Positions 8,964-29,779 of a DNA stretch of 64,000 bases are shown one piece after another. Every line of letters starts with the position of its first letter. Position 1 is the stretch's first letter. The position numbers and the translations under genes are program-made. The DNA is from Arthrobacter woluwensis (lineage in GTDB: Bacteria > Actinomycetota > Actinomycetes > Actinomycetales > Micrococcaceae), in the NCBI RefSeq assembly GCF_900105345.1, contig NZ_FNSN01000003.1:2170001-2234000 (forward strand), written 5' to 3'. The notes under the pieces are model-generated. The model ran no database searches. It saw only the letters and a list, made by a program, of their open reading frames with translations, and was not told the DNA's origin.

Positions 8964-8999
8964 CTTCACTTCGGGCCGCGTCGTGGATAGCGTGAGCGG

Positions 9000-9617: not shown

Positions 9618-9622
9618 GCCGT

Positions 9623-10015
9623 TCAGGCGACCAGTTCGACCTCGAAGCCCTGCCCGTTCACCAGGTATAGCGCGGTGTGCTGAGGACCGCCGGCATGCGG
9701 GTAGACCTCCGGGAAGAGCTCTTGCCAGTCGTTCGCGACGGCGTCCCTGCGCAGCTCGTCGAGCAGGGCACGGCCCGGAACGGTGAAGGCCACATGGTTC
9801 AGCCCGGGACGGAGCCGGTCGTGCGGTTCGTCCAGCACCGCGGGGGACTGCTCCAGCACCAGATAGCTTCCCTCCGGATGCCGCCAGATCCGGCCCTGCG
9901 GCCAGTCCGCGGGGTCGTCCTTGACGAAACCGAGGTGGGCCAGGAGCCAGTCGAAGGACGGCTCGGCGCCGGGAAGGTCGCGAGTCCAGAGCTCAAGGTG
10001 ATGGAAGATCGGCAC
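9623..10015 (-). CDS. VOC-family (glyoxalase-like) protein
   Basis: A 130-residue single VOC unit beginning IFHHLELWTRDL and ending QHTALYLVNGQGFEVELVA. Paired beta-alpha-beta-beta-beta motifs and the internal LNHVAFTV strand are typical. Putative metal ligands are the N-terminal His, the His of NHVAF and the C-terminal Glu. The reaction is unknown; relatives include glyoxalases, dioxygenases and resistance proteins. TAGACT ends 6 nt before the GTG start at 10015, indicating its own leaderless promoter and separation from the upstream MhuD-like unit by a hairpin (10081-10113). Confidence 0.8.
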   Translation of the reverse strand: MPIFHHLELWTRDLPGAEPSFDWLLAHLGFVKDDPADWPQGRIWRHPEGSYLVLEQSPAVLDEPHDRLRPGLNHVAFTVPGRALLDELRRDAVANDWQELFPEVYPHAGGPQHTALYLVNGQGFEVELVA

Positions 10016-10080
10016 ACCGGGAGTCTAACGCCCGCGTTTCCGCCTCGTCCTGGTCGACGGATCCGTCGGGCAACACGAAA

Positions 10081-10113
10081 GGGCGGCCACGGGATCTTCC
10101 CCCGTGACCGCCC
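10081..10113 (-). terminator. Terminator after the MhuD-like gene
   Basis: Hairpin with two 6-bp blocks (GGGCGG/CCGCCC and CACGGG/CCCGTG) separated by one mismatch, with a 7-nt loop. On the minus strand it is followed by CTTTCG, a short U-run. It lies 7 nt after the stop of the 10121-10447 gene. Confidence 0.7.
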
Positions 10114-10120
10114 CGTCACA

Positions 10121-10447
10121 TCACTCTCCGCTGCTGAGGTCCGCGACGCTGTAGCTCCACAGCTCGGCGGACACTCCCACCGGGCGCTGGCGCGCGCCGT
10201 CGTCGCCTCCGGAAGGGCGGTGACCATGACCGAACGACGCCGACTCGCGCCAGGCGTTGAAGCTCTCCTCATCGGCCCAGCGGGTCAGGACGAGCCAGAC
10301 ATTGCGGCCGTCGGACGGCTGCAGAAGCTCGAAGCCCTCGAAGCCGGGCTGGCCGTCCACCGAGGTGGCGCGGGCGGCGAAGCGCTTGGCGAGCTCGTCG
10401 CCGGAATCTGCGGGAACGGTGATGGCGTTGATCTTGATGACACTCAT
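10121..10447 (-). CDS. MhuD/IsdG-like haem-degrading monooxygenase (ABM domain)
   Basis: A 108-residue ferredoxin-like ABM-domain protein. It aligns closely in pattern with mycobacterial MhuD: N-terminus VIKINAITVPADSGDELAKRF, Asn7 and Trp66 at the same numbers as the catalytic Asn and ruffling Trp of MhuD, and a GHGHR segment supplying the haem-ligand His (H74 or H76, with a two-residue shortening before it). MhuD releases iron from haem without CO. It overlaps the upstream VOC gene by 4 bp, so the two are co-translated. No DtxR/IdeR box is obvious upstream. Confidence 0.8.
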   Translation of the reverse strand: MSVIKINAITVPADSGDELAKRFAARATSVDGQPGFEGFELLQPSDGRNVWLVLTRWADEESFNAWRESASFGHGHRPSGGDDGARQRPVGVSAELWSYSVADLSSGE

Positions 10448-10842
10448 GAGTCCATTCTGCCTGCTGGGTCAGGACCCCACCCACTCCACTCGGCGGCGTC
10501 GATCACGCAGAAGCGATTTCCTTCGGGGTCCTCCATGATCAGGTAATCGGCGTCGTCAGGCCGGCCTTCCCAGTGGACGAGGCGCGCCCCCAGCGCCTCG
10601 AGCCTTACGGCTTCCGCCGCCTGGTCCTGCGCGTACAGGTCGAGATGGAGCCGCGGTGGCAGCATGCGCTCCGAGGGCGAAGCGTCCAGCGACACATTGG
10701 GGCCGCGGCCTTCCGGGGAATGGAGCAGGACGAAGTCGTCCCCTGGGGGCTCCCTCACCACATAGTGAAGCGCCGCGCACCAGAAGGCGGTCTGCGCGGT
10801 CAGATCGCGAACACGGAACACCACCGAACCGATGACCAGCAT
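10444..10842 (-). CDS. VOC-family (glyoxalase-like) protein
   Basis: A 132-residue VOC protein of the glyoxalase-like (Glyoxalase_6-type) class: VIGSVVFRVRDLTAQTAFWCAALHY at the N-terminus, PRLHLDLYAQD in the centre and the terminal MEDPEGNRFCVID motif. The substrate is unknown. It is first in a two-gene unit with the MhuD-like enzyme (ATGA overlap), which makes a shared role in haem or oxidative metabolism possible. TAGATT ends 6 nt before the ATG at 10842, consistent with a leaderless mRNA. Confidence 0.8.
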   Translation of the reverse strand: MLVIGSVVFRVRDLTAQTAFWCAALHYVVREPPGDDFVLLHSPEGRGPNVSLDASPSERMLPPRLHLDLYAQDQAAEAVRLEALGARLVHWEGRPDDADYLIMEDPEGNRFCVIDAAEWSGWGPDPAGRMDS

Positions 10843-10947
10843 GAACCGAATCTAGACGTCGGGAGGCGGTGATCCAAGGCCGGGGTGTGAGTTTCCGATC
10901 GGCCGAGGTCTTGTCGGCTGGGCACGGGACTGCCAGACTGGGCCGCT

Positions 10948-11538
10948 ATGGAGGGCTTGACCTGGGCGGAGACCGAAGGGACGTTCTGCGCCACCACCGT
11001 GCTCCTCGAGGGAGTCAGTGATGTCGCGGCCGTACGGGCGGTCGCCAAGCGCCTCGATGTCGACCTCTCCTCCGTGCAGCTGGTGGATCTCGGGGGAGTG
11101 ACCAACGTGCGGCGGGTGCTGCTGGACACCGTCCGCGCCAGGCCCGACGCCGGCCTCCTCGGGCTCTGCGACGCCGGAGAGGTGCGATTCGTGCTGCGGG
11201 CGCTGGACGTGGCAGGTCTCGGAGTGGCTCACGAACGGGAACTGCCCTCCCGGGGCTTCTTCGTCTGCCGCGCCGACCTCGAAGAGGAGCTGATCCGCGC
11301 TCTGGGGACGGCACGGACGGTGGAGGTCATCGAAGGACTCGGGCTCGGAACCAAGCTGGCCACCCTGCAGCAGCAACCCGCGTGGCAGGGCCGGCCCCTG
11401 GCCGAGCAGCTTCACCGTTTCTGCGGGGTCGCCTCAGGACGCAAGGAGCTGCTGGCCGGCGCTCTGGCGGCGGAACTGGAGCCGAGCGAGGTCCCGGTTC
11501 CTCTCAGGAGGCTGGCCGAGAGGATGGCCCGGGCCTGA
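10948..11538 (+). CDS. Stand-alone TOPRIM-domain protein (OLD nuclease-type)
   Basis: A 196-residue protein. VLLEGVSDVAAVRAVA places the TOPRIM glutamate at E21, and LLGLCDAGEV (69-78) occupies the position of the DxD motif but reads D-A-G-E. This resembles the C-terminal TOPRIM domain of OLD-family ATP-dependent endonucleases, without any ATPase domain. Such orphan domains occur in Actinobacteria and have no established activity. The altered acidic motif makes nuclease activity doubtful. Its 3' end overlaps the convergent HTH gene by 35 bp. Confidence 0.7.
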   Translation: MEGLTWAETEGTFCATTVLLEGVSDVAAVRAVAKRLDVDLSSVQLVDLGGVTNVRRVLLDTVRARPDAGLLGLCDAGEVRFVLRALDVAGLGVAHERELPSRGFFVCRADLEEELIRALGTARTVEVIEGLGLGTKLATLQQQPAWQGRPLAEQLHRFCGVASGRKELLAGALAAELEPSEVPVPLRRLAERMARA

Positions 11539-12412
11539 TCTCAGCCTTCGGGACAGCGTTTCCGGTCGACTCCGCCAGGATCCCCAGCAGCTTGAGCGAC
11601 TCCTCGGCCGGGCTGCACGGCTCGGCCGTGTACAGGAGGATGCGGTGTCCCGAATCGTCGGGGGAGTCCAGCACTTCGAACGACAGCTCCAGCTCACCCA
11701 GTTCGGGATGCCGGAACAGTTTGACTCCCGAGACGCAGTTCTGCACGGGATGCCGGGACCAAAGCCGAGCGAACTCCTCGCTGCGGAGCGTCAGTTCACC
11801 GATCAGCGCGGCCAGCGCGCCGTCGTCGGCCCGTCCCGCCAGCAGACGCAGCGAGGCGACGGCACGGGAGGCCTCCTCCGGCCAGCGCGAGTAGAGCTCG
11901 CGCGTCTGCGGGTCGAGGAAGAGCAGCCGGTGCAGATTGGGCCTCGTCTCGGGCGCCGCGGGCGCGGCGAAGTCCAGATGGCCCGCCACCAGGCGATGCC
12001 CCAGCGGATTCCATGCGAGCACGTCGCCGAGACGGCCCAGCACGACGGCGGGCACGCCGGTCATGGCCTGCACCAATCGGATCGTGCCCGGCCGAGCCTC
12101 GTCCGGTCGGGACGGTCCGCGACGGCCCGGCTTCCTCGCCGGACGGGCCAGATCGAACAGGTGGCTCCGTTCGTCGGCGCTCAGACGGAGGGCCCGGGCC
12201 AGGGAGTCGAGCACGGCATCGGACGCATTGGTGCTGAGGCCTTGTTCTAGCCGCGTGTAGTACGTGAGGCTCACTCCGGCGAGCATCGCCAGCTCCTCGC
12301 GCCTCAGCCCGGGCACGCGTCGCACTCCGTGGTGCAGCAGTCCCACGTCATCCGGCTGGATGCCCGCGCGGCGGAGCCGAAGGAACTCGCCGAGTTCGCT
12401 CTGAGGGTTCAT
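11504..12412 (-). CDS. XRE/MmyB-like helix-turn-helix regulator
   Basis: A 302-residue regulator. An N-terminal XRE-type HTH (VPGLRREELAMLAGVSLTYYTRLEQG) is followed by an MmyB-like PAS-type ligand domain (AMTGVPAVVLGRLGDVLAWNPLGHRL, with ELYSRWPEEA and the FARLWSRHPV motif). These regulators bind small hydrophobic ligands and usually control a divergent neighbour; here that is an MFS transporter (12560). I chose the ATG at 12412 because CAGAAT ends 7 nt upstream. An ATG 9 nt further upstream is also possible. Confidence 0.88.
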   Translation of the reverse strand: MNPQSELGEFLRLRRAGIQPDDVGLLHHGVRRVPGLRREELAMLAGVSLTYYTRLEQGLSTNASDAVLDSLARALRLSADERSHLFDLARPARKPGRRGPSRPDEARPGTIRLVQAMTGVPAVVLGRLGDVLAWNPLGHRLVAGHLDFAAPAAPETRPNLHRLLFLDPQTRELYSRWPEEASRAVASLRLLAGRADDGALAALIGELTLRSEEFARLWSRHPVQNCVSGVKLFRHPELGELELSFEVLDSPDDSGHRILLYTAEPCSPAEESLKLLGILAESTGNAVPKAEIRPGPSSRPAS

Positions 12413-12559
12413 GGAAGCCATTCTGCCCCGAGGAAAGCCGGCTGTCCTGTCCCTGGGAGTGCTAGGCAGGGCCGGGTCTGGTTGCGATCCGGCGACGGCC
12501 GCACAGTGGAGGCACCGCCACCTGAGGCGGCATCGACCCCACGAGCAAGGAGCCACGGC

Positions 12560-14077
12560 ATGACCATTCCCTCGGGACCGCACACGGAGAGCGGCACGCC
12601 CGCCGCCGCACCGGACGGCGGTGGGAGACCAAGCGGTGCAGGCTCAGGCGGTGCCGCCGGCACGGGTGCCACGATGTCCCGGCATCAGCGGATCGCGCTC
12701 GTGGTGCTGCTGACGGCGGGCTTCACCCTCGCCGTCGACTTCTCAATCCTCAACGTCGCCCTTCCGGTCATCGGCAGGGAGGTCGGCTTCGCCCTGGAGA
12801 ACCTGCAATGGATCGCCACGGCCTTCTCCCTGTGCGCGGCGGGACTCACGCTGCTGTCCGGACGGGTCGCCGATCTGCTCGGCCGACGTCGGGTGTTCTT
12901 CACCGGCATGGCGCTTCTCGGCATCGCGTCGCTGGTCGGCGGGATCGCGACCGAACCGGCATTGCTCCTCGCCGCCCGGGTGGGCCAGGGCATCGCTACG
13001 GCTCTGGTGATCCCGTCGGCCCTGGCGCTGCTCCTCGCCGCCTTCGAGGAGGGTCCTCTGCGGGAGAAGGCCCTCGGCTTGAACGGCGCGCTGATGGCTG
13101 CGGGTTTCACCACGGGAGCCGTTCTGGGCGGCCTCCTGACCGACATTCTGAGCTGGCGATGGGCCTTCTTCCTCAACATCCCGGTGGCCCTCGGCGTGCT
13201 GATCGCCGGCCCTTTGGTGCTCCACGAGAGCCGTCCCGCCACGCGGCAGACCCTGGATGTGCCGGGCGCGATCACCGTGACGCTGGGCCTGTTCGCCCTG
13301 GTCCTCGGGCTCACTCAGGCCGCCGAAACCGGCTGGACCTCACCATTCACCCTGGTCGCGCTGGGGGCGGCCGCCGTCCTGCTCGTCTCCTTCATCCTGG
13401 TGGAACGGCGTGCCGCTGCACCGCTCGTGCCCCTCTGGATGGTGCGCCGTCCGGCCATCGCGTGGGGGAATCTGGCCGGTCTGGCGGCCTTCGCCACCGA
13501 GACCTCCCTCGTGTTCCTTCTGACCCTCTACGTGCAGCGCGTGCTCGGGTACAGCCCGCTCGGCGCGGGCCTCTCCTTCGCGGTCCTGGGGCTCGGCACC
13601 GTTCTGGGTGGACTGCTCGGGCCCCGGGTGATCGCCCTGTTCGGCACCAAGGGGGCGCTGGCCGGCGGGTTCGCCGCGCAGGCCGCCGCCACCGGCATCC
13701 TGGCGCTGCTGAGCTCGGAGCCCGGGTCGCTCATCCTTCTCCTGATCGCGACTTTCGTCGGAGGAGTGGCCAATCTGGTGGTCATCGTCGGGTTCACCGT
13801 GACCGCGACCTCCGGTCTGCCCGACACCGAGCAAGGCCTCGCCACCGGGCTCGCGACCATGAGCCAGCAGATCGGCATCACCCTCGGGATCCCGATCATG
13901 AGCGCCATCGTCACGGCGCACCTGACCAGCATGGGGGCCGGGGCCGCCGGGCCGGACGTGATCCTGGGTGGCCTCACCACGGCCATCCTCGTCAACGCCG
14001 GGGTCTGCCTGGCGATGGCCGTCCTGCTCGCCGCCTTCCTGCGGAGGCCCGCTGCACGTACGCGGACCACGACCTGA
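12560..14077 (+). CDS. MFS transporter, DHA2 (EmrB/QacA) family
   Basis: A 505-residue drug:H+ antiporter-like transporter with 14 predicted helices after a Gly/Pro-rich cytosolic N-terminus of about 40 residues. It has LSGRVADLLGRRRVF (motif A, between TM2 and TM3), LTDILSWRWAFFLNIPVAL (motif C region of DHA2 proteins) and a late NLVVIVGFTVTATSGLP segment. AAGGAG lies 8 nt before the ATG. The divergent MmyB-like regulator probably controls it, so inducible efflux of a small hydrophobic compound is a reasonable guess. The substrate is unknown. Confidence 0.88.
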   Translation: MTIPSGPHTESGTPAAAPDGGGRPSGAGSGGAAGTGATMSRHQRIALVVLLTAGFTLAVDFSILNVALPVIGREVGFALENLQWIATAFSLCAAGLTLLSGRVADLLGRRRVFFTGMALLGIASLVGGIATEPALLLAARVGQGIATALVIPSALALLLAAFEEGPLREKALGLNGALMAAGFTTGAVLGGLLTDILSWRWAFFLNIPVALGVLIAGPLVLHESRPATRQTLDVPGAITVTLGLFALVLGLTQAAETGWTSPFTLVALGAAAVLLVSFILVERRAAAPLVPLWMVRRPAIAWGNLAGLAAFATETSLVFLLTLYVQRVLGYSPLGAGLSFAVLGLGTVLGGLLGPRVIALFGTKGALAGGFAAQAAATGILALLSSEPGSLILLLIATFVGGVANLVVIVGFTVTATSGLPDTEQGLATGLATMSQQIGITLGIPIMSAIVTAHLTSMGAGAAGPDVILGGLTTAILVNAGVCLAMAVLLAAFLRRPAARTRTTT

Positions 14078-14083
14078 CGCACG

Positions 14084-14129
14084 ACGACGGCGGCGCCGCA
14101 CCGGCTTTCGGCCGGCGGGCCGCCGTCGT
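14084..14129. terminator. Bidirectional hairpin between MFS and DUF3237 genes
   Basis: Ten-bp perfect outer stem ACGACGGCGG/CCGCCGTCGT enclosing a smaller GC hairpin, located between convergent genes. There is no T-run on either side. Confidence 0.65.
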
Positions 14130-14135
14130 GGACGC

Positions 14136-14603
14136 TCAGCTCACCCGGTAGGCCGTGTAGCGCACGGTGTCCGCATCACGCAGACCTGACGTGATGAACA
14201 ATGACCGTTCCAGGTGGGCCAGCCGCGGCGCCGAGGTCTCGATCGAGACAGTGGTCCGGAAGTAGAACTCTTCCGGCCCGGGCTGTTCGCCGCGGGCCAG
14301 CGCCTCGGCGGCCTGAGGACCGGGGATGCGGAGACCCTCGGCGTGGAGATACAGGAGCTCGCCGTCCTCGGTCCTGGCACTGTAGCGGGCATCGATCTCG
14401 CAGCCTCCGTCCGGGCGGATGCGCTGCCAGTCAGCGCCGCCCTCCAGGATCTCCGCGGTCACCGCACCGGAGATCCTGCCACCGAGGATCGGCACCACGC
14501 GGCGATGACCGACGCGGGTGACGCCATGGTCGGCCGGAGCGCCGACCTGCACCTCGACGTCGAAGGCGGCTTCCAGGCCCGGCACAGGAAGCGGCGCCGT
14601 CAT
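14136..14603 (-). CDS. DUF3237 domain protein
   Basis: A 155-residue beta-barrel DUF3237 protein: VQVGAPADHG, VVPILGGRISGAV, DGGCEIDARYSARTEDG, then FYFRTTVSIETSAPRLAHLERSLFI. The family is often found in clusters for aromatic or polyketide catabolism but has no assigned reaction. It is the last gene of a three-gene operon (flavin monooxygenase, MarR, DUF3237), overlapping the MarR gene by 4 bp. The context suggests a role in handling the product of the monooxygenase. Confidence 0.8.
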   Translation of the reverse strand: MTAPLPVPGLEAAFDVEVQVGAPADHGVTRVGHRRVVPILGGRISGAVTAEILEGGADWQRIRPDGGCEIDARYSARTEDGELLYLHAEGLRIPGPQAAEALARGEQPGPEEFYFRTTVSIETSAPRLAHLERSLFITSGLRDADTVRYTAYRVS

Positions 14604-15094
14604 GACGTCACCCCAGGGCCCTGCGGGGGCGAGTCCCCCGTCGAGACCTCCGCACTGCCGCTCCGTGCGACCAGGTCCCGCAGGCTCTCCAGCACCGGAA
14701 CCGCCGCGGCGAGGACGCTCTGTTCCTCCGGGCTCAAGCGCGCCACCGCCTCCAGAATGACGGTCGTGGACGTGGCGTCGAAGGACTCGAAGTGGCGGAG
14801 CGCGTCCTCGGAGGCGCGGACCTGGACCCCGCGCCCGTCCTCGGGACTCGGGCGCCGGCTGATCAGACCCGCCCGCTCCATAGACGCGAGAAGGTTGCTG
14901 ACGCTGGACTTGCTGAGGCCCAGCGTCGTGGCGAGTTCACCGGGCGATGTCGCGGTTCCGCGCGGGAGGGCACGGAGGATCTCAACCTGCGCATCCGGGA
15001 TGTCGGGCAGATCGGCACGGGCGCGGGTCACGGTCAGCAGGGTCCGGCGGAGCGGTGAGACGACTGCGGCCAGTCGTGCGGCGTCGACGATCAT
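14600..15094 (-). CDS. MarR-family transcriptional regulator
   Basis: A 164-residue MarR protein. The winged HTH covers about residues 45-105 (SPGELATTLGLSKSSVSNLLASMERAGLISRRPSPEDGR, with the conserved D-x-R wing), flanked by dimerisation helices. It overlaps both neighbours by 4 bp, so it is translated within the monooxygenase operon. An inverted repeat in front of that operon (16384-16402) is the likely operator, giving autoregulated repression lifted by an aromatic or phenolic ligand. The ligand is unknown. Confidence 0.88.
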   Translation of the reverse strand: MIVDAARLAAVVSPLRRTLLTVTRARADLPDIPDAQVEILRALPRGTATSPGELATTLGLSKSSVSNLLASMERAGLISRRPSPEDGRGVQVRASEDALRHFESFDATSTTVILEAVARLSPEEQSVLAAAVPVLESLRDLVARSGSAEVSTGDSPPQGPGVTS

Positions 15095-16341
15095 GCCCCG
15101 GCTCCCACTCCCAGCGAAGACCGCGCGTTGAGCTGTTCCGGGTGGAAACCCGCGGCACGCTTGTAGGACGCCGCGATCTCCTCGAGCTCCGCTGCCGGGA
15201 TCACGTCGTGGATGTCCGCGAAGCCGCCGGGCGCCCGTTCGTGGGCGAGTTGCATGACGCGTTCCGGCCCGGTCTGCCGCGTCATCTCCAGAAGTTTCGC
15301 CGTGACGGGACGGCGGTCCTTCTCGTAGCGCTGCAAGGCATCCTCGATCGTCGCCGCAGTCGCGAGGTGGTGGGCCAGCGTGCGGGCGTCGAGGATGGCC
15401 TGCGAACCGCCGTTGGATCCGTTCGGGTACATCGCGTGGGCGGCGTCCGCGATCAGCGTCGTCCTGCCGATGCTCCAGCGGGGGAGTGCGTCGCGGTCCA
15501 CCATCGGGTATTCGAGGATCTCTTCGGCGCCGGCGATGACCCCCGGCACATCGAGCCAGTCGAAGGACCAGCCGCGGAACAGCTCCGCGATCGGAGCGGG
15601 CGCGACGGCGCGGTTCCAGTCGGCGTCCGGTGAGCCGGCGACGCGGCGCTCGGCGATGAAATTGACGCGCTGCGTGCCCGTCGCCGGGTCGAGCGGTTCG
15701 AGAGGGTAGGCGACGAACTTCTGCTCGCCGTCGCCCGCCATGATCATGGTGCGACCATCCAGGAACGGCGCGACGCGTGCCGTTCCGCGCCAGAGAGTGA
15801 GTCCACTCCAGACGGGAGCGCCGTCCTCGGGATACCGGAGGGCGCGCAGGGCGGAGTGGATGCCGTCGGCGCCGATCAGCACGTCGGCGTCCACGTCCAC
15901 GGGGCCGTCCACGGTGTCGAAGGTGGCGGTGACGCCGTCGGGCCGGTCCCGGACCGCGGACAGTCGATGTCCCGTGCGCACCACGTCGCCCAGCCGCTCC
16001 CGGACCACTTCGTAAAGAACGAGCTGCAGCCGGCCCCGGTGCACGGACAGCTGAGGCCAGCGGTATCCCGCGGCCAGCCCACGCGGTTCGGACCAGATCT
16101 CCTGGCCATGACGGTTGAAATAGCTCAAGGCCTCCGGCTCTACGCCGAGCTCCCGGATCCGGGAGCCCAGACGGAGCTCGTCCAGTTCCCGCACGGCGTG
16201 GGGCAGCAGGTTGATCCCGACGCCCAAGGGCCGGATCTCACGGCTGCGTTCGTACACGACGACCTCCCGGAGGCCTGCCGCTTCGAGACTGAGAGCGAGG
16301 GCCAGGCCGCCGATGCCGGCCCCTGCGATGGCGATGCGCAT
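15091..16341 (-). CDS. FAD-dependent aromatic monooxygenase (PHBH/PhzS-like)
   Basis: A 416-residue group A flavoprotein monooxygenase. The FAD-binding GAGIGGLALALSLEAAG is at the N-terminus, the DG motif is ADVLIGADGIHSALR (about 155-170), and the GD-type motif is TTLIADAAHAMYPNGSNGGSQAILDA (about 290-315). The match is to 3-hydroxybenzoate 6-hydroxylase/PhzS-like enzymes annotated as flavin-dependent oxidoreductases. The ATG at 16341 is preceded by GAAGGAG. It is first in the operon with MarR and DUF3237 genes. Substrate unknown; an aromatic acid or phenol is expected from the family. Confidence 0.88.
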   Translation of the reverse strand: MRIAIAGAGIGGLALALSLEAAGLREVVVYERSREIRPLGVGINLLPHAVRELDELRLGSRIRELGVEPEALSYFNRHGQEIWSEPRGLAAGYRWPQLSVHRGRLQLVLYEVVRERLGDVVRTGHRLSAVRDRPDGVTATFDTVDGPVDVDADVLIGADGIHSALRALRYPEDGAPVWSGLTLWRGTARVAPFLDGRTMIMAGDGEQKFVAYPLEPLDPATGTQRVNFIAERRVAGSPDADWNRAVAPAPIAELFRGWSFDWLDVPGVIAGAEEILEYPMVDRDALPRWSIGRTTLIADAAHAMYPNGSNGGSQAILDARTLAHHLATAATIEDALQRYEKDRRPVTAKLLEMTRQTGPERVMQLAHERAPGGFADIHDVIPAAELEEIAASYKRAAGFHPEQLNARSSLGVGAGA

Positions 16342-16383
16342 GAAGACTCCTTCGTCTGTGATCTGCACCACGGGTGATGAAGA

Positions 16384-16402
16384 TAGTTTTGCATCTGAAC
16401 TA
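16384..16402 (-). promoter_or_regulatory. Candidate MarR operator before the monooxygenase operon
   Basis: 19-bp element with perfect TAGTT/AACTA arms around 9 nt, in the promoter region of the 16341-14136 operon and 43 nt upstream of the start codon. Size and symmetry fit MarR-family sites, and the MarR gene is in the operon. Confidence 0.5.
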
Positions 16403-16458
16403 CTTTGCCGCAAGGGGTGGGTCCCGGGGGAGAAGACGCGGGGGAGCGGGCACAGCAG

Positions 16459-16488
16459 AGCCCCGGGCGCCAGGTGGCGTCCGGGGCT
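16459..16488 (-). terminator. Terminator after glgP
   Basis: Perfect 8-bp stem AGCCCCGG/CCGGGGCT continuing into an inner GCGCC/GGCGT stem with a GU pair, 24 nt after the glgP stop codon. No U-run follows. Confidence 0.7.
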
Positions 16489-16512
16489 CCGTCAAGCGTG
16501 CTGCCAGTCGGT

Positions 16513-18996
16513 CTACAGCGACGGCGGCGTGTGCCAGATCCGCTCGATGTAGTCGCGCATCGAGCGATCCGACGAGAAGAAGCCGCAGCGCGCGACGTTC
16601 AGGATCGCGGACCGGGTCCAGGCGTCCTGGTCTGCGTATGCGGCGTCCACGGTGCGCTGAGCCTGCAAATAAGAGCCGTAGTCCGCCAGCACCATGAAGC
16701 GGTCGTCGTAGAGCAGGTTGGAGACGATCGGTTCGAAGGTCGAGCGGTCTCCGCCGGAGAACGCGCCGGAGGCGATGAGGTCCATCGCGCGGCGGAGGTC
16801 CTCATTGCCCTGGTAGAACTCGCTCGGCCGATATCCCTTGGCCCACAGTGCCGCGACCTCCGGTTCGGTCATGCCGAAGAGGAAGAAGTTGTCATCGCCC
16901 ACAAGCTCGCGGATCTCGACGTTCGCGCCGTCGTCCGTGCCGATGGTGAGCGCGCCGTTCAGCGCGAACTTCATGTTGCCCGTGCCGGAGGCCTCCTTGC
17001 CGGCCAGGGAGATCTGCTCCGAGAGGTCGGCGGCCGGAATCACCCGCTCGGCGAGCGTGACGTTGTAGTTGGGCGGGAAGAGCACCTTGAGCCGGCCTTC
17101 GACGCGCGGATCGTTATTGACCACGGATCCGACCGCGTTGATGAGGTGGATGATCCGCTTCGCCATGGCATATCCAGGAGCGGCCTTCGCCCCGAAGATG
17201 AAAGTACGCGGAGTGATGTCGGATGCCTTCACCCGGCCGGACTGGACACCCTCGTAGAGCGTGACGATGTGCAGCACCTGGAGCATCTGGCGCTTGTACT
17301 CGTGCAGGCGCTTCACCATGACGTCGAGCAGATGTCCCTCACCGACCACCAGGCCGTCACGGAGCATCAGCTCGTCGCGGAGGCGGTCCTTGTTATGGGC
17401 TTTGACCTCGGCGAATGCCGCGCGGAACGCAGGATTCTCCGCGTGGGGCTCCAGTTCTTTGAGGCGGTCCAGGTCCGTCTCCCAGCCCGAGCCGATGGTG
17501 TCCGAGATGAGAGAGGACAGTGCGGGATTCGCCAAGCGGAGGAAACGCCGTGGCGTGACCCCGTTGGTGACGTTGGTGAACTTGCCGGGGAAGAACTCGG
17601 CGAAGTCGGGGAGCACCTTGTCCCGGAGGAGCTGTGAGTGCAGCTCGGCGACGCCGTTGACCTTGGCGCCGGCCACTGTCGCCAGATAAGCCATCCGGAC
17701 GGAGCGTTCCGGGTGCTCGCCGATGATCGACATGTTGCGGATCCGCATCTCATCGTCGCCGAACTGTTCCCGCACCGACAGGAGGAACTCCTCATTGATG
17801 CGGTAGATGATCTCCAGGTGGCGGGGGAGCAGGCGCCCGAGCAGGTCCACCGACCAGACTTCCAGGGCCTCCGGCAGGAGAGTGTGACAGGTGTAGGCGA
17901 AACACTGACGGGTGATCTCCCACGCTTCGGCCCAGTCGAGACCTCGCTCATCCACCAGGACGCGCATGAGTTCCGGCACCGCGATCACCGGGTGAGTGTC
18001 GTTGAGCTGGAAGATCACGCGCTCAGGCAGGTTCTTGAGATCGAAACCCTCGGCGAGCTGACGGTCCAGGAAGTCCCGGATCGAGGCGGCCACGAAGAAG
18101 TACTGCTGCTGAAGGCGCAGCTCCTTGCCCTGCGGCGTCGAGTCCTCCGGGTACAGCACTTTGGAGATGTTGGACGCGAACGTCTGGGCGCGCACGGCCT
18201 CCGAGTACTCGCCGGAGTTGAAGGTGCGCAGATCGAAGGCGTTGGTGGCCTCGGCGCTCCAGAGGCGCAGCGTGTTGACGCGGCCATTGCGGTAGCCGGG
18301 CACCATGTAGTTGTAGGGGACGGCCTGGACGTCCCAGGCCGGGACCCAGCGGGTCCGCTGCGTGCCGTCGTCGTCGTAGCTTTCAGTGTGACCGCCGAAC
18401 GAGATGGTCTGCGCCGCTTCAGGGTGCGGGAATTCCCAGGGGGAGCCCATGGCCAGCCACTGATCGGGCTGTTCGGCCTGCTGGCCTTCGACGAACGTCT
18501 GACGGAAGATGCCGAATTCGTAGCGGATGCCGTACCCGATGGACGGGACGCTCATGGTGGCGAGGGAATCGACGAAACAGGCCGCCAGGCGACCCAGACC
18601 GCCGTTGCCGAGACCCGGCTCGACCTCAAGGCGGCGGAGCTCATCGATGTCGATGCCGCAGGAGGCGAGGGCTTCGGTCGCGATCTCATTGAGCCCGCTC
18701 GCCAGGAGGTTGTTGTCGAGCTGCCGCCCCAGGAGGTACTCGGCGGAAAGATAGCAGACGCCCTTGGCCTGGCGCTCGTGCTGGCGGCGCTGGTCTTCCA
18801 GCCAGCGGGCCATGAGATAGTCCCGCACGGTCTCAGCCAGCGCCAGGTAGCGGTCGTTGTCGCTCGATGTCGACAGCGCCACGCCCTGACGGAAGTTCAG
18901 GTTGTTGAGGAATTCTTGGACGAACCCGTCTACGGTGCTGGCGGGTGGGGCCACCGGCCCGAGTGCGAGCGGGTGAGAAACAGGAGTGTCAGACAT
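16513..18996 (-). CDS. glgP: Glycogen/alpha-glucan phosphorylase
   Basis: An 827-residue GT35 phosphorylase that releases glucose-1-phosphate from glycogen or maltodextrin. Full family length. Diagnostic segments are LSAEYLLGRQL and LGNGGLGRLAACFVDS near the N-terminus, FQLNDTHPVIAVPELMR in the middle, and the PLP site EASGTGNMKFALNGALTIGT whose Lys carries the cofactor. TAGCGT (19003-19008) ends 6 nt before the ATG at 18996, predicting a leaderless transcript. A hairpin terminator follows. No other glycogen gene is adjacent. Confidence 0.97.
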   Translation of the reverse strand: MSDTPVSHPLALGPVAPPASTVDGFVQEFLNNLNFRQGVALSTSSDNDRYLALAETVRDYLMARWLEDQRRQHERQAKGVCYLSAEYLLGRQLDNNLLASGLNEIATEALASCGIDIDELRRLEVEPGLGNGGLGRLAACFVDSLATMSVPSIGYGIRYEFGIFRQTFVEGQQAEQPDQWLAMGSPWEFPHPEAAQTISFGGHTESYDDDGTQRTRWVPAWDVQAVPYNYMVPGYRNGRVNTLRLWSAEATNAFDLRTFNSGEYSEAVRAQTFASNISKVLYPEDSTPQGKELRLQQQYFFVAASIRDFLDRQLAEGFDLKNLPERVIFQLNDTHPVIAVPELMRVLVDERGLDWAEAWEITRQCFAYTCHTLLPEALEVWSVDLLGRLLPRHLEIIYRINEEFLLSVREQFGDDEMRIRNMSIIGEHPERSVRMAYLATVAGAKVNGVAELHSQLLRDKVLPDFAEFFPGKFTNVTNGVTPRRFLRLANPALSSLISDTIGSGWETDLDRLKELEPHAENPAFRAAFAEVKAHNKDRLRDELMLRDGLVVGEGHLLDVMVKRLHEYKRQMLQVLHIVTLYEGVQSGRVKASDITPRTFIFGAKAAPGYAMAKRIIHLINAVGSVVNNDPRVEGRLKVLFPPNYNVTLAERVIPAADLSEQISLAGKEASGTGNMKFALNGALTIGTDDGANVEIRELVGDDNFFLFGMTEPEVAALWAKGYRPSEFYQGNEDLRRAMDLIASGAFSGGDRSTFEPIVSNLLYDDRFMVLADYGSYLQAQRTVDAAYADQDAWTRSAILNVARCGFFSSDRSMRDYIERIWHTPPSL

Positions 18997-19505
18997 GGCA
19001 CGACGCTATATGACGCAGGTGTCCGCGAAAGTGTCTGTCGAGAATATTTCGGGCGGCTGTCATGTAACGATCCAGGTGAGCGCCGAATGGTCAAAAAAGT
19101 GCAGGGGAGTGGCGCGGTGGGCGCAGGGGCGGGTCGCTCGGCGCGTTCAGGACGCCGATCGGGTGCTGATGAGGACGACGCCGTCGCGGTCACCACGGCA
19201 CCGATCGTGTCCGCAGAGCCTTCCTGGCCCTGCCTCCGCCATGGATTCGAACTCTCGACGACGCCGATCGCCTCATGTCCAGAACGCTGAACCCGACGGC
19301 GGCGCCTCGCCTGGCGGATGAACACCGCAGCCAGGAGTCCGATCACCTCAGCGACGACCACCCATACGGCGACGTCGAAGAATGTGTCAGGCCAGAGCGC
19401 ATGCACCGCGACAAGTGACCCGCCGATGATCACGAGCACGCAGACGAGAGAGATCCAGCTGACACCGACGGACGTGTCAGGCGTGATGTCTCGGTCGGCG
19501 GTCAT
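18930..19505 (-). CDS. Hypothetical two-helix membrane protein, possibly decayed at its 3' end
   Basis: A 191-codon frame starting MTADRDITPD, with GGAGAG at good distance before the ATG. Residues about 15-65 form two clear hydrophobic helices (WISLVCVLVIIGGSLVAV; VAVWVVVAEVIGLLAAVF) followed by an Arg cluster. The remainder is low-complexity and basic, runs through the glgP promoter and overlaps the glgP coding region by 67 bp on the same strand, which is unlikely for an intact gene. I read the N-terminal half as a real gene, or the remnant of one, that has lost its original stop. No family recognised. Confidence 0.4.
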   Translation of the reverse strand: MTADRDITPDTSVGVSWISLVCVLVIIGGSLVAVHALWPDTFFDVAVWVVVAEVIGLLAAVFIRQARRRRRVQRSGHEAIGVVESSNPWRRQGQEGSADTIGAVVTATASSSSAPDRRPERAERPAPAPTAPLPCTFLTIRRSPGSLHDSRPKYSRQTLSRTPASYSVVPCLTLLFLTRSHSGRWPHPPAP

Positions 19506-19813
19506 CGAAGAACTCTCCACATCTCTGCCGCGGCGTTCCATGAGCAGTCGTGGAGTCAGGCTAAGCGAGAATGCCGCGCGCGACCAGAGCCTGGTCGAGT
19601 CCTGCAGTCGGAATGCCGAGGTCGCCGTCACAGGTATACGACGTCGACCAAACCCTCTCCGTCCACGACAGTAAAGCGCCGATAATCTACATTATGTCAA
19701 CTAATAATCCGGACGCTGCCCTGGGCCGATCATCTCGCCCCTCCTTGGCGCACGAGACGTTCCCCTCGTTCACAGTGCGCTGAGACATGACCTCCACGCG
19801 ACGCTCTCACTGT
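19506..19813. other. Non-coding terminus gap around dif
   Basis: About 310 bp without a convincing gene on either strand. A 70-codon frame at 19571-19783 (+) spans dif itself, has no ribosome site and shows no family resemblance. The gap holds an AT-rich core at 19672-19710 containing the dif site. Nothing else is recognisable. Confidence 0.6.
19675..19702 (+). other. dif: dif: XerC/XerD chromosome dimer resolution site
   Basis: 28-bp site in the standard 11-6-11 layout. The left (XerC-type) arm is AGCGCCGATAA, the centre is TCTACA and the right (XerD-type) arm is TTATGTCAACT. The right arm matches the B. subtilis arm (TTATGTAAACT) at 10 of 11 positions, and the whole matches the actinobacterial dif pattern as I remember it (CGCCGATAAT, then ACATTATGTCAA). 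It is one of the most AT-rich spots of the region and is not in a coding sequence. dif sites are normally single-copy and lie opposite oriC, so this probably marks the replication terminus. Confidence 0.88.
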
Positions 19814-19912
19814 TCAGGGAGTTCGACGCGTCAGTTCGGCGCGCACGATGCCGCCGGGCCGCCCGTCGGCTTCGGCGAGCTTGGTTCCGTCAGCAGCAAA
19901 GACCGCAGAGCC
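19814..19912 (-). pseudogene. Remnant: C-terminal tail of a carbon-nitrogen hydrolase (nitrilase superfamily)
   Basis: In the frame shifted relative to the methyltransferase fragment, the minus strand reads GSAVFAADGTKLAEADG followed by RPGGIVRAELT and then stops at 19814. This is the characteristic closing strand-turn-strand of nitrilase-superfamily hydrolases (GSAVxxPDGxxLAEAG, then VxAEL). No other part of such a gene is present upstream in any frame, because the methyltransferase fragment takes over at about 19912. I interpret it as the 3' stub left by a deletion. Confidence 0.55.
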
Positions 19913-20307
19913 GCGCCGTAGTCCAGGGGCTGGGCATCCTCCACCGGCGGCCCCCAGATCTGGCTCGCACCAATGCAGATGACCGCATCGGCCGCTGCAT
20001 TCTGAGCCTCCAAGCCAGGCATGAGATCGAAAATCACCCGGTCATCCAGCCCGCGAATCCGCGCTTGCTGGCGTGCCCGCTCGATGAACGCCGGCGACCG
20101 GTCCACTCCCCTGCCTCGCGCGTGCGGCACCGACTCCACGACCCGGAGCAGCAACTCACCCCACCCGCACCCCATGTCCAGAACGTCCGTCGGCGCAGGG
20201 TCGGATAAGAAGGTCACCAGGTGCGCGGCGCGTTCCTCCGAGAGCGGAGTCAGCCACGTCAGAGAGTCATGGAGGGGCGGTAGTTCCAGCGATGTACTGT
20301 CCGTCAC
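19831..20307 (-). pseudogene. Truncated SAM-dependent methyltransferase
   Basis: A 158-codon frame whose first about 132 residues form a good class I methyltransferase N-terminus: VLDMGCGWGELLLRVVE (SAM motif I), GVDRSPAFIERARQQA, then VICIGASQIWGPPVEDAQPLDYGAALR. Relatives with this N-terminus usually run to about 240-250 residues. Here the sequence changes abruptly after YGAALR into a Pro/Ser-rich nonsense tail that overlaps, out of frame, a nitrilase-like remnant. The Rossmann sheet would be incomplete, so the product is probably inactive. It lies about 130 bp from dif. Confidence 0.7.
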
Positions 20308-20346
20308 ACCATCGATCCTCTCACGAGCCCTCAGGCCGTTCCCAGG

Positions 20347-20724
20347 TCATTGCCGGTCCACCTCTCCAACAGCGCGGCTCCCTCGCAACGCTACCAGCGC
20401 GGCCCTGACGGTGTCCCGGGCATGTGCGAGTTCGGCAATCCGCCCGTCGATGACCTCGAGCTGCTCCGCCAGGAGCGACGCCTTCTCCCCCTCGCTCATG
20501 CCGTCCCAATGCGTCATGCGCTCCCGCATCTCCGTCAACGAGAAGCCGGCCGCCCGTCCCGCAAGAATCAGTTCCACTCGGCGCTGAGCCTCCGGCGTGT
20601 AGTCACGATAGCCATTGGGCAATCGCTTCACCTGACCCGGGCTGAACATGTCCCGATCCTCGTAGAACCTGATCGCCGACGGCGCCACACCCGTGCGGCG
20701 AGCCAGTTCACTGATCCTCATCAT
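20347..20724 (-). CDS. MerR-family transcriptional regulator
   Basis: A 125-residue MerR protein: RISELARRTGVAPSAIRFYEDRDMFSP (HTH), NGYRDYTPEAQRRVELILAGRAAGFSL (wing and second HTH), then a dimerisation coiled coil (ALLAEQLEVIDGRIAELAHARDTV). No Cys pair typical of metal or redox sensors is present, so a small-molecule or unknown signal is expected. AAGGGG precedes the ATG. It is divergent from a DUF998 membrane protein gene, with a palindrome in the shared region lying inside a 19-bp promoter spacer of that gene. Confidence 0.88.
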   Translation of the reverse strand: MMRISELARRTGVAPSAIRFYEDRDMFSPGQVKRLPNGYRDYTPEAQRRVELILAGRAAGFSLTEMRERMTHWDGMSEGEKASLLAEQLEVIDGRIAELAHARDTVRAALVALRGSRAVGEVDRQ

Positions 20725-20729
20725 CCCCC

Positions 20730-20760
20730 TTGACCTTCAAGTGACTTGAAAGTTTAGCGT
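20730..20760 (+). promoter_or_regulatory. MerR-type promoter of the DUF998 gene with operator
   Basis: TTGACC (20730-20735) and TAGCGT (20755-20760) are separated by 19 bp, the over-long spacer that MerR activators correct by DNA distortion. The spacer contains the perfect palindrome TTCAAGT-G-ACTTGAA (20736-20750). It resembles SoxR-type boxes in layout. Confidence 0.65.
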
Positions 20761-20800
20761 CGATTCCGACAACCCGGTCCACGACTCAAGGAATTCCCCC

Positions 20801-21400
20801 ATGACGCACTTCCTCGCCGGCACAGCGGTTGTTCTGTTCTCCCTGCGGCTCCTGCTGTTCGTCCTGCTGCACGTGCTGCCCGGCGGCATCCACCCTGTCC
20901 ACGACACCGTCAGCGATTACGCCGCATCTCCGGCGAAACGGACCAGGGCAGTCGCTTCCGCCGCATCGTGGACGGCGTCCTTGGCCTGGCTTTCGCTCGG
21001 CTTCGCCGTCCTGTCTAGCACCTCCCGATCGGACACCACGCTGGGTGGCTGGCTGCTCGGCCTCGGCGTGCTCCTGGCGGTCATGCCTTTCGTGCCGACC
21101 GATCGCAGCGGCACCACCACGACCACGCGTGGCAGGATCCATCTGCTGTTCGCGATCGCCTGGTTCACCCTCGCCTACGCGACCATCACCCCCTTGAGCA
21201 GATTGATCGCGGGCCCAGCGGGCGCCGTCGCCGTGGTGAACGCACTGGATCTGATCGCGGCGATCTCGTTGACGGCGCTTGTCCTCGCCTTGCTCATCCA
21301 GCCTCTACGACGCCGGTTCTTCGGTCTCAGCGAACGCCTCTTCATCGTGGTGGTCACTGCTGCTCCGCTGGTGGCAGCAGCAGTCCTGGCCTCCCCCTGA
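20801..21400 (+). CDS. DUF998 family membrane protein
   Basis: A 199-residue membrane protein with six predicted helices. DUF998 hallmarks are the HPVHDTVSDYAASP loop after TM1, the FVPTDRSG loop after TM3 and the following RGRIHLLFAIAWF helix. Function is unknown for the family. AAGGAA lies before the ATG at 20801. The MerR-type promoter directly upstream indicates that this gene is the target of the divergent MerR regulator, suggesting a role in a stress or solute response. Confidence 0.78.
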   Translation: MTHFLAGTAVVLFSLRLLLFVLLHVLPGGIHPVHDTVSDYAASPAKRTRAVASAASWTASLAWLSLGFAVLSSTSRSDTTLGGWLLGLGVLLAVMPFVPTDRSGTTTTTRGRIHLLFAIAWFTLAYATITPLSRLIAGPAGAVAVVNALDLIAAISLTALVLALLIQPLRRRFFGLSERLFIVVVTAAPLVAAAVLASP

Positions 21401-21500
21401 GTTTCGGTGGCAGCCGGCCACCGAACCCCACCGGTCCGAAGAGCCGTTCCGAACGTCCCTGATACCGTCAGAGCTTCGGAACAGCGAAAGGGCAGGTCAG

Positions 21501-21899
21501 ATGGACCATGACGGGATGGCATCACAGACCCTCCCAGGAGACCGCCTGACGGCAGGTCAGAGAACGTCCGTGGTGCTCGCGATCGCGGGCACGGTGGTCT
21601 GCTTCCCTGCGGCCCTACTGTTCGGCTTGGCGCTGGGCGCCTATCCCTTCCGGATGGAATGCACCCTCGAGACGCTTGGCTCGGGGTGCTACGAGGGTGA
21701 ACTCGAGCTCAGCGGCGTCCTCCTCGCACTGGTTTTCGTGCCGTTCTTCGTCGCGACGCTCGTGCTGGCCATCATCAACCGAAAAAGCCCACGGCGCGCA
21801 GCGACCTGGCTGCCGCTCATCGGGCTGTGCAGCGTGACATTCATCGCCGTCGCCGTCTACGCAGTACTGATGGCCACGAGCCCTTCGCCCGGCCTGTGA
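21501..21899 (+). CDS. Hypothetical three-helix membrane protein
   Basis: A 132-residue protein starting MDHDGMASQ, with three hydrophobic helices (VVLAIAGTVVCFPAALLFGLAL; LLALVFVPFFVATLVLAI; LPLIGLCSVTFIAVAVYAVL) and two Cys in the first extracytoplasmic loop (MECTLETLGSGCYEG) that could form a disulfide. Purine-rich AAAGGGCAGG precedes the ATG. Not recognised as a named family. It lies 100 bp after the DUF998 gene in the same direction and could be co-transcribed. Confidence 0.6.
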   Translation: MDHDGMASQTLPGDRLTAGQRTSVVLAIAGTVVCFPAALLFGLALGAYPFRMECTLETLGSGCYEGELELSGVLLALVFVPFFVATLVLAIINRKSPRRAATWLPLIGLCSVTFIAVAVYAVLMATSPSPGL

Positions 21900-21948
21900 T
21901 GCCCTGGCGGCACCGCTTCACTCAGCCGCGGCCCAGTAGCCTGGGGGC

Positions 21949-22443
21949 ATGAGCCCCACTCCCCCGTTCCTGCCACCCGTCGACATCGCACCGGGCTTCG
22001 TCGTCCGCAAGGCCCTCCGCAATGACCTGGGGTCCCTCATCGAGCTGCTGCACGATGACATGCTCGGTCAGACCCGCGAACGGCACGACGACGGCGCCTA
22101 CCTCCGAGGCTTCGAAGCGGTCGACTCCGATCCGGCCCAGTTCCTCGCGGTCGTCGAAGACTCCGACGGCGCCCTCGTCGGGTTGATGCAGCTCAGCCTG
22201 ATCCCGGGGATTTCCCGTGGCGGACGCCTCCGGCTCAACATCGAAGGCGTCCGCATCGCGTCGACGCTGCGCGGACAAGGAGTGGGGTCCGCCATGATCT
22301 CCTGGGCCGTCGAGTACGGCCGCCGGAACGGAGCCGGCCTCGTCCAGCTCACGACGGACGCCCGCAGGACCGACGCCCAGCGTTTCTACACCCGGCTGGG
22401 GTTCGTGGCGAGCCACGTTGGCATGAAGCTCGACCTGGATTGA
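21949..22443 (+). CDS. GNAT-family N-acetyltransferase
   Basis: A 164-residue acetyltransferase. It has FVVRKALRNDLGSLIELLHDD at the start, the central LIPGISRGGRLRLNIEGVRIAS strand and the acetyl-CoA P-loop RGQGVGSAMISWAVEYGR (Q/RxxGxG/A), then DAQRFYTRLGFVASHVGMK. The substrate is unknown. TAGCCT (21937-21942) ends 6 nt before the ATG, so a leaderless transcript is likely. It converges on the PBP gene 9 nt away. Confidence 0.82.
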   Translation: MSPTPPFLPPVDIAPGFVVRKALRNDLGSLIELLHDDMLGQTRERHDDGAYLRGFEAVDSDPAQFLAVVEDSDGALVGLMQLSLIPGISRGGRLRLNIEGVRIASTLRGQGVGSAMISWAVEYGRRNGAGLVQLTTDARRTDAQRFYTRLGFVASHVGMKLDLD

Positions 22444-28006: not shown

Positions 28007-28155
28007 GTGTAGATCCTATCGAGGCGACGCCGCCGGACCCGCAATGTGAACTGCGGCACCTCCCCTGGTGCGGAAAACCACGGTAGTTTTCGCAGCTCTG
28101 TAGAAAAAGTCTGCCGAAACGGCGCTTTGCGTTGGGCACCGCGAGGTTTTGCAGA

Positions 28156-28161
28156 CATAAT
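28156..28161 (+). promoter_or_regulatory. -10 element of ctaE (leaderless)
   Basis: CATAAT, matching TATAAT at five of six positions. It ends 6 nt before the GTG of ctaE at 28168, so transcription should begin at or beside the start codon. A weak TTGGGC lies 18 bp upstream. Confidence 0.6.
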
Positions 28162-28167
28162 GTCTAT

Positions 28168-28806
28168 GTGACCACAGCGACTCATGCCCCCAGTACCCCG
28201 GCGCATCCCACGCTGAACAGGCCAAACATGGTTTCCGTTGGGACCGTGGTGTGGCTGTCCAGCGAGCTGATGTTCTTCGCCGGCCTTTTTGCCATGTACT
28301 TCACCCTGCGCTCCACTTCCGGTGAGCTCTGGGCCGAAGAGACTGCGAAGCTGAACTTCCCCTTCGCCCTGGTGAACACCATTGTTCTGGTGCTCTCCTC
28401 CTTCACCTGCCAGATGGGCGTCTTCGCCGCAGAGCGTCTGCAGCCCCGCCGCACCGGCAGCATCTTCCAGTTCACCCGCTGGGGGATGAACGAATGGTTC
28501 ATCCTGACGTTCCTCATGGGTGCCTTCTTCGTGGCCGGTCAGGCCACCGAGTACGCGATGCTGACCAGCGAGCACGTGACCCTGAACGCGAACGCCTACG
28601 GTTCGGCCTTCTACATGACCACGGGCTTCCACGGCCTGCACGTCATCGGCGGCCTCATCGCGTTCCTCTTCATCCTCGGACGTTCGTACGCGGCCAAGAA
28701 GTTCGGCCACTTCGAAGCGACTTCGGCGATCGTGACCTCCTACTACTGGCACTTCGTCGACGTCGTGTGGATCGGCCTCTTCCTGGTCATCTACGTCCTG
28801 AAGTGA
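28168..28806 (+). CDS. ctaE: Cytochrome c oxidase (aa3) subunit III
   Basis: A 212-residue subunit III of the aa3 oxidase with five predicted helices, the actinobacterial short form lacking the first two helices of mitochondrial COX3. Signatures are [32 protein letters not shown] and [16 protein letters not shown] chose the GTG at 28168 (VTTATHAPS) because CATAAT ends 6 nt upstream; a longer frame would read through that promoter. It heads the ctaE-qcrCAB operon, joining one oxidase subunit with the bc1 complex, the standard layout for the actinobacterial bcc-aa3 supercomplex. Confidence 0.95.
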
Positions 28807-28891
28807 CCGGTGCCTTGAGCACGGAACACGGCAAAGAAAACTACGCACCTGCCTGGCTGGCAAGTGCACGATCGATCAAAGGAACCACCAA

Positions 28892-29680
28892 GTGAAGGCA
28901 CTCTCCCTGAAGCGACGTCATCCGCTCGCGGCAATCGCCTTGCTGTTGTTGGGTCTGCTCTTCACTGGTGGCCTCTACGCGGCGGCCTCCACGGCCAACC
29001 AGGCCAAGGCCGAGACCCAGAGCTACAGCGCCAGCGATGCCGCTGAGGGCAAGAAGCTGTTCGTGGCTAACTGCTCCACCTGTCACGGCATGGGCGCCGC
29101 CGGCACCAAGGACGGTCCGTCCCTGGTCGGCGTCGGCGCTGCCGCCGTCGACTTCCAGGTCGGCACGGGCCGTATGCCCATGCAGATGAACGGCCCGCAG
29201 GCCCAGATCAAGCCGAAGCAGTTCAACGAGGAGCAGACCCGCCAGCTCGCCGCCTACGTGGCGTCCCTGGCACCGGGCCCGAGCGTTCCCGACGCGCACA
29301 TCCTCGACGAGAAGGGTGACGCCGCCAAGGGTGGCGAGCTCTTCCGAGTGAACTGCGCCATGTGCCACAACGCCGCCGCTGCCGGTGGTGCGCTGACCCG
29401 GGGCAAGTTCGCCCCGACCCTGCACGGTGTCGAGAGCAAGCACATCTACGAGGCCATGGTCACCGGCCCGCAGAACATGCCTGTCTTCAGTGACGCGAAC
29501 ATCTCCCCCGAGGGCAAGCGCGACATCATCACCTTCCTGAAGACCATCGAGAACAACCCGTCCCCGGGTGGCGCCGACCTCGGCGCCCTGGGTCCGGTCT
29601 CCGAGGGCCTCTTCGTGTGGACTGCAGGTCTGGCCGTCATCATCGGCTTCACCATCTGGCTGACCTCGCGTAGCAGCTAG
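28892..29680 (+). CDS. qcrC: Cytochrome bc1 complex dihaem cytochrome c subunit
   Basis: A 262-residue dihaem cytochrome cc. An N-terminal anchor helix (about 10-31), two covalent haem sites CSTCH (61-65) and CAMCH (155-159), distal Met in GRMPM and NMPVF, and a C-terminal anchor helix (about 240-257). This fused cc subunit passes electrons from the Rieske protein straight to CuA of the aa3 oxidase, replacing soluble cytochrome c in Actinobacteria. AAAGGAACC precedes the GTG start. Confidence 0.96.
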   Translation: MKALSLKRRHPLAAIALLLLGLLFTGGLYAAASTANQAKAETQSYSASDAAEGKKLFVANCSTCHGMGAAGTKDGPSLVGVGAAAVDFQVGTGRMPMQMNGPQAQIKPKQFNEEQTRQLAAYVASLAPGPSVPDAHILDEKGDAAKGGELFRVNCAMCHNAAAAGGALTRGKFAPTLHGVESKHIYEAMVTGPQNMPVFSDANISPEGKRDIITFLKTIENNPSPGGADLGALGPVSEGLFVWTAGLAVIIGFTIWLTSRSS

Positions 29681-29779
29681 CTGACAGCGCGGGCGAACAC
29701 TTTGCCGCTGCGACGACGGCGGCGTTGAAATTGAAGATCTTCGGCAACAGCCGAACTCAGAGAGGGAAAAAGGGGAACC

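Follow-up and report, generated by a model that had tools for sequence, protein, structure and literature searches.

Prediction of dif sites has covered all 66 of the Actinobacteria surveyed by Kono et al. 2011, and in the accessible part of that text the Frankia alni site is quoted as CACGCCGATAATGCACATTATGTCAAGT (PMC3025954). The site described here lies in a 64,000-nucleotide stretch of the Arthrobacter woluwensis chromosome (C3:2170001–2234000 of the 3,295,468-bp contig C3; hereafter, the window). It resembles the F. alni site and the other actinobacterial sites in its 11-6-11 arrangement, the pattern GCCGATAA...TTATGTCAA, its single copy and its location near the terminus. It differs from the quoted F. 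alni site in the spacer (TCTACA here, TGCACA there) and in the outer bases, and in nothing essential as far as the accessible text goes (PMC3025954). The chromosomal dif is an ordinary feature, of an already known kind.

Directional motifs leading to dif are also described. According to the available portions of the sources, KOPS (E. coli GGGNAGGG, PMC13342612) and AIMS (PMC5993296) resemble the motif reported below in being strand-biased octamers that run from the origin to dif and switch strand there. They differ in that the motif here is BGGGGGAG, a candidate FtsK guide.

For secondary replicons, two groups of systems are relevant: (i) the dif modules and pdif sites of Acinetobacter plasmids and (ii) large replicons of Enterobacteriaceae and others. 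In the former, neighbouring sites face opposite ways, except where modules have fused (accessible text of PMC13141974 and PMC11705084), and the plasmids studied lack KOPS, as far as the available part of PMC11705084 goes. In Enterobacteriaceae, the accessible sections of PMC11724359 describe FtsK-type dif sites as the norm on replicons larger than 250 kb; plasmids >115 kb mostly carry some Xer site, those of 30–100 kb tend to have none, and dimers of R27, a 180.5-kb plasmid, are resolved with FtsK. KOPS switching at dif is described for large extrachromosomal replicons in the part of PMC13342612 available. In the literature searched, with subscription journals mostly outside its scope, we found no report of dif-like seams or of a chromosome-like layout on Micrococcaceae or actinobacterial plasmids. 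The apparent novelty lies in the plasmids, in this genome as in related ones: they have their own dif-like sites and seem to have a chromosome-like layout centred on those sites.

The chromosomal dif site

Re-reading of the sequence returned the same 28 letters and exact 11-6-11 layout that the original prediction had given for the site, and the ATAAT-CTAC-ATTAT inner symmetry that it described is present (Table 1). The right arm differs at one base from the XerD arm of what we take to be B. subtilis dif. Within the window, the 28-mer has a single match at ≤3 mismatches, with none in 100 dinucleotide shuffles. The whole-genome search suggested with the prediction, run at the same threshold over 3,859,681 bases in 9 contigs, likewise gave one match and not several copies (backwards control, 0). 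With only the arms specified and the centre free (≤3 mismatches), no better dif is found elsewhere on C3, where this site stands alone; the whole genome adds two sites, both on contig C2.

Table 1. Features of the window around dif (positions within the window)
Feature	Positions	Strand	Remarks
Left BGGGGGAG run, pointing to dif	4785–17829	+	9 copies, all +
Glycogen phosphorylase gene	16513–18996	−	nearly whole profile matched
BGGGGGAG switch interval	17822–21959		contains dif at 19675
ORF left of dif	18930–19631	−	no Pfam match
dif	19675–19702	+	AGCGCCGATAA-TCTACA-TTATGTCAACT; 11-6-11, 28 bp
dif left arm AGCGCCGATAA	19675–19685	+	XerC side, by analogy; register matches Frankia alni dif as quoted in the accessible text of PMC3025954
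dif central hexamer TCTACA	19686–19691	+	predicted place of strand exchange
dif right arm TTATGTCAACT	19692–19702	+	XerD side, by analogy
32 codons like the tail of an ORF in L150	19814–19909	−	ORF in L150 is 252 aa
Methyltransferase-domain ORF right of dif	19831–20307	−	158 aa; matches 77/97 profile positions
Right BGGGGGAG run, pointing to dif	21959–63255	−	18 copies, all −

The site is conserved well beyond this genome. All 120 family genomes examined contain a match at ≤3 mismatches (backwards control, 0). The exact dif core, searched with a pattern into which the TNNACA spacer form was built, occurs in at least 120 stretches; 117 of the 120 listed are titled Actinobacteria, read by eye, and three (L010, L048 and L085) are filed outside this group. 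In 118 tabulated sites, the inner GATAA of the left arm is fixed by the search pattern and the outer bases vary; the last base of the right arm is T in 104 and the penultimate base is G or C in 109. When 30 of the family-genome matches were taken as loci, the window could be aligned with 17 of the 29 others, each time over 25–53 bp at dif itself, the exception being 97 bp at 19814–19910 found in two same-genus loci. Nothing was found to favour a chance AT-rich palindrome, and its absence from the shuffles together with its presence in every relative examined makes the probability of such an origin vanishingly small.

The genes of an XerCD-type dif system are present. XerD passes its NCBIfam model (score 343.4, cut-off 329.6); a second, XerC-like protein scores best in the XerC model at 310.9, under the cut-off of 335.15. 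These are two of six integrase-domain matches in the genome, and FtsK-gamma is also encoded (E 8.6e-24).

A strand-biased octamer and the terminus

The original prediction had placed the replication terminus in the window and proposed GC skew as a check. The dif site, at 2.19 Mb, does lie inside the switch zone, but the skew is too weak and mixed to place the switch. In 20-kb samples of C3, the skew is mostly positive between 0.38 and 2.09 Mb, becomes mixed up to 2.29 Mb and is mostly negative beyond, with the samples at 2.09–2.17 Mb already slightly negative and those at 2.25–2.29 Mb slightly positive. GC skew was dropped as the deciding test because of this noise, and replichore-biased octamers were examined instead.

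The octamer most biased by replichore is CGGGGGAG (157:3); in the contiguous 260-kb block described next, the ratio is 53:0, ranking it first among 11,816 octamers with ≥15 copies there. Over the contiguous 260 kb from 2.07 to 2.33 Mb, all 38 BGGGGGAG copies left of dif, up to 2,187,822, are on the + strand and all 44 to its right, from 2,191,959, are on the − strand. When all 241 copies sampled on C3 beyond dnaA are divided by one strand switch, its best position is again the 4.1-kb interval between these two coordinates, which leaves 6 of the 241 on the wrong strand. It is this switch, with dif inside it, that upholds the terminus claim. The polarity recurs in other genomes: in the 120 dif-core loci listed, the copies to the left of dif number 194 on + and 4 on − and those to the right 2 on + and 236 on −, the corresponding counts in 29 family loci being 24, 0, 0 and 33. 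On each arm, BGGGGGAG is directed towards dif, as KOPS are, and it looks like a KOPS-type FtsK guide motif. It is a candidate for a phylum in which no KOPS sequence was found in the literature searched, some of which was accessible only in part.

The position of dif defines where the terminus of the chromosome lies. With dnaA at C3:387,844 and C3 taken as a circle, 154 kb (4.7% of C3) separate dif from the point directly opposite dnaA; this offset, the lack of a sharp skew switch and the XerC-like score below the cut-off speak against the assignment. The forks presumably meet at dif, where the guide-like motifs converge. It is also conceivable, if unlikely, that dif is genuine and the forks normally meet elsewhere, dif being only the point on which the FtsK guide motifs converge. 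The mixed skew and the unequal arms from dnaA (1.80 versus 1.49 Mb, if C3 is circular) would fit such an arrangement; the narrow switch interval around dif argues against it, though it bears on FtsK and not on the forks.

Single copy, conservation in relatives and the octamer switch around the site all agree with the initial dif call, and we consider the site almost certain to be the single chromosomal dif, predicted to act through FtsK–XerCD in resolving chromosome dimers. By analogy with E. coli-type systems, an odd number of crossovers after replication would produce a chromosome dimer, and septal FtsK, reading BGGGGGAG from origin to dif on both arms, would be guided to the site. At dif, FtsK would activate XerD and XerC bound on the two 11-bp arms, and strand exchange across the TCTACA spacer, with the order of cleavage expected from those systems, would allow the two chromosomes to separate.

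Genes around dif

The original prediction placed dif between two damaged-looking genes, a description that fits the right side. There, the methyltransferase-domain ORF matches only part of its profile, and the adjoining 32 codons match the tail of an ORF in a same-genus locus (L150). The end of the methyltransferase ORF overlaps these codons in another frame, so that remnants of two genes appear fused at 19814–20307 (−), as if by deletion. The ORF to the left, lacking a Pfam match, speaks neither for nor against damage, and the next gene leftward, for glycogen phosphorylase, is nearly whole by its profile match. Elsewhere in the window, frames at 28132–36927 resemble cytochrome c oxidase and bc1-complex genes, as judged by eye, and the region at 33–37 kb has a lower GC content and a strong AT skew.

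Additional dif-like sites in Micrococcaceae

The two further sites of this genome are on contig C2 (82,744 bp). C2 closes with a copy of its first 9,760 bp (99.95%; no mismatches and 5 gap bases), the pattern expected of an over-assembled circle of ∼73 kb. Its genes include those for a ParA-type ATPase and a conjugation coupling protein, and BGGGGGAG copies are directed from parA to the dif-like sites. These lie in direct orientation at 38187 (ATTGCCGATAA-TTGAGA-TTACGTAAGTC, 21.4 bits) and 43110 (AACGCCGATAA-TTGTCG-TTATGTAAGGT, 39.4 bits), scored with a matrix built from 30 dif sites of the family. On this matrix, the best value over 920 kb sampled from the rest of the chromosome, beyond the window, is 12.8 bits. 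Genes for an ABC ATPase, a likely permease (Pfam match below cut-off), YcaO and a TOMM leader-binding protein lie between the sites (C2:38187–43137) and form a compact cassette of the YcaO/TOMM type for peptide modification, together with its ABC transporter genes.

Extra sites are widespread in the family. By hand count among the matches listed, 101 of 395 family genomes have ≥2 matches to CCGATAANNNNNBTTATGTMAA at ≤1 mismatch, where the chromosomal dif itself usually accounts for one, matching with 1 mismatch; the backwards control gave 4 matches in all. Nine of 10 named Micrococcaceae plasmids have ≥1 arms match at ≤3 mismatches, for 33 matches (control, 1), a few of which look like chance. 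With a refined site matrix, 82 sites reach ≥14 bits over 934 kb of loci from plasmids and islands, and none does over the 920 kb of own chromosome; note that these loci were chosen for holding sites and were themselves used to refine the matrix with which their sites were then counted. The 82 sites have 42 spacers, and none has the chromosomal form TNNACA. The search pattern, which disfavours TNNACA, supplied part of these sites, and the rest were found without that bias. The spacers fall into two similarly large classes, ending in A in 40 cases and in C or G in 41, with T in 1, and the right arms are of two kinds, TTATGT as against TTC/TTT forms. Orientation is not strictly alternating: same-direction neighbours occur in several arrays, including C2.

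That dif-like sites of a plasmid or mobile kind are so common in the family lends something to the notion that the chromosomal site is itself a mobile-element attachment site or a plasmid-type Xer site that landed there, with the real dif elsewhere. We regard this as very improbable, since the extra sites have other spacers whereas the site in the window has the chromosomal one, and since it is the sole site found on C3 and is located at the motif switch. Our assignment remains that of the single chromosomal dif.

A conserved recombinase gene, annotated as resolvase or recombinase family in the named plasmids, is found near many of the dif-like sites. A reading of these as res sites of this recombinase was rejected on several grounds: (i) in the two cases inspected closely, L252 and NC_015146, the site comes after the stop codon of the gene and not at its promoter; (ii) in NC_011881 and NZ_CP066363, the sites are 0.6–5 kb away, on both sides of the gene; (iii) an arms search at ≤3 mismatches gave no site on a Cupriavidus plasmid that carries a related gene and (iv) the inner arms of the extra sites are those of chromosomal dif. 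The 'XER modules' of Antarctic Arthrobacter were also set aside as recombinase-bearing elements for which the accessible text of PMC6305408 does not mention a dif site. Two site pairs at an identical 2,811-bp spacing are not one shared module, the loci having no common homology.

Seven genomes that belong to a single genus (g10; L252–L257 and L261) have an extra dif-like site on the main contig. These sites are probably near the origin, because they are ∼70–320 kb from the point opposite dif. The conserved recombinase gene is common to six of the seven loci (not L255).

Organization of the plasmids

Micrococcaceae plasmids of 73–190 kb are, in our judgement from their sequences, probably organized like chromosomes. 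FtsK guide motifs would run from parA to a terminus carrying dif-type XerCD sites, and because they lead there the plasmids would use the chromosome's FtsK–XerCD pathway. The sites would be seams at which host XerCD swaps cassettes between plasmids and chromosomes, and spacers unlike TNNACA would prevent fusion of plasmids into chromosomal dif. The set behind this reading was chosen for carrying sites, and some members share a backbone or host strain. If it is true, mid-sized actinobacterial plasmids resolve dimers via FtsK, and gene cassettes are exchanged through host XerCD without a transposase.

BGGGGGAG forms two polar blocks on ten whole plasmids or contigs, which include 4 of the 10 named Micrococcaceae plasmids (all four typed conjugative); unlabelled contigs were taken as circles. 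Wrong-strand copies amount to 1/32 on C2, 2/38 on AP024662, 3/33 on NC_011881, 2/20 on G369:C3, 2/42 on NZ_CP066363, 6/39 on NC_015146, 3/23 on G385:C3 (scanned without its last 76 bases), 1/18 on G374:C2, 4/27 on G388:C2 and 1/25 on G079:C14. The polarity beats every one of 100 label shuffles in six of the ten, and the order on G369:C3, G385:C3, G374:C2 and G388:C2 is no better than the best of the 100. The motif does not merely track gene direction: 122 copies are co-directional, 128 contra-directional and 47 intergenic with respect to mechanically picked ORFs.

The terminus-side switch strictly contains a site in 6/10 plasmids (rotation p 0.002–0.003, null mean 2.0) and is ≤2.5 kb from one in 9/10 (null mean 2.7, p 0.0002), a tolerance picked post hoc. 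The misses are 25.7 kb on G374:C2 and 2.4 kb on AP024662. The origin-side switch overlaps the ParA gene in four of the five plasmids checked (C2, AP024662, NC_011881 and NZ_CP066363); NC_015146 has three equally good origin-side intervals, one of them 0.4 kb from an AAA ATPase gene. These replicons resemble the enterobacterial (PMC11724359) and other extrachromosomal (PMC13342612) large replicons, as described in the accessible text, in that a secondary replicon has guide motifs whose polarity reverses at a dif-type site, but they are only 73–190 kb and belong to Actinobacteria.

Homology ends at dif-like sites

Ends of homology between different replicons coincide with dif-like sites. In 28 of 666 cases, a site is present on both partners within 10 bp, whereas 500 rotations of the sites give 0.03 such cases on average and never more than 1; the ends are not mutually independent. 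The excess is weaker for a site on either partner (39, null mean 6.8, maximum 35). Some homology ends at 32 of the 82 sites, and of the 3,212 pairs of sites from different replicons, 13 have one 60-bp flank in common (≥70%) and none has both. The clearest break is between NC_011881 and NZ_CP068014, which have at least 4,612 bp in common at 99.9% up to the junction of left arm and spacer, past which the spacer and right arm differ. This is what would be left by an exchange inside the spacer.

Inter-replicon homology that ends at sites, dif arms and varied spacers are likenesses to the Acinetobacter dif modules and pdif sites, as presented in the accessible text of PMC13141974 and PMC11705084. 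The plasmids here differ in belonging to Micrococcaceae, in their larger size, in their many polar guide-like motifs and in lacking the strict alternation of C and D modules. The sites would work like dif modules, and we do not file them as members because their orientation is not strictly alternating.

A 4,004-bp segment that starts at a dif-like site is 99.8% identical between plasmid NC_015146 (L290, 5664–9667) and the main contig G369:C1 (L261, 10470–14473), seemingly of the same strain. On NC_015146, it carries tyrosine recombinase and HTH regulator genes, with a second tyrosine recombinase just past its far end. Judging by this gene content, some of the segments linked to sites may be recombinase-bearing elements and not host-XerCD cassettes. 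Two related plasmids, G369:C3 (L262, 6020–9623) and G374:C2 (L264, 6096–9700), have different inserts of ∼3.6 kb at a shared position; the dif-like site is at one end of the insert in one plasmid and at the other end in the second.
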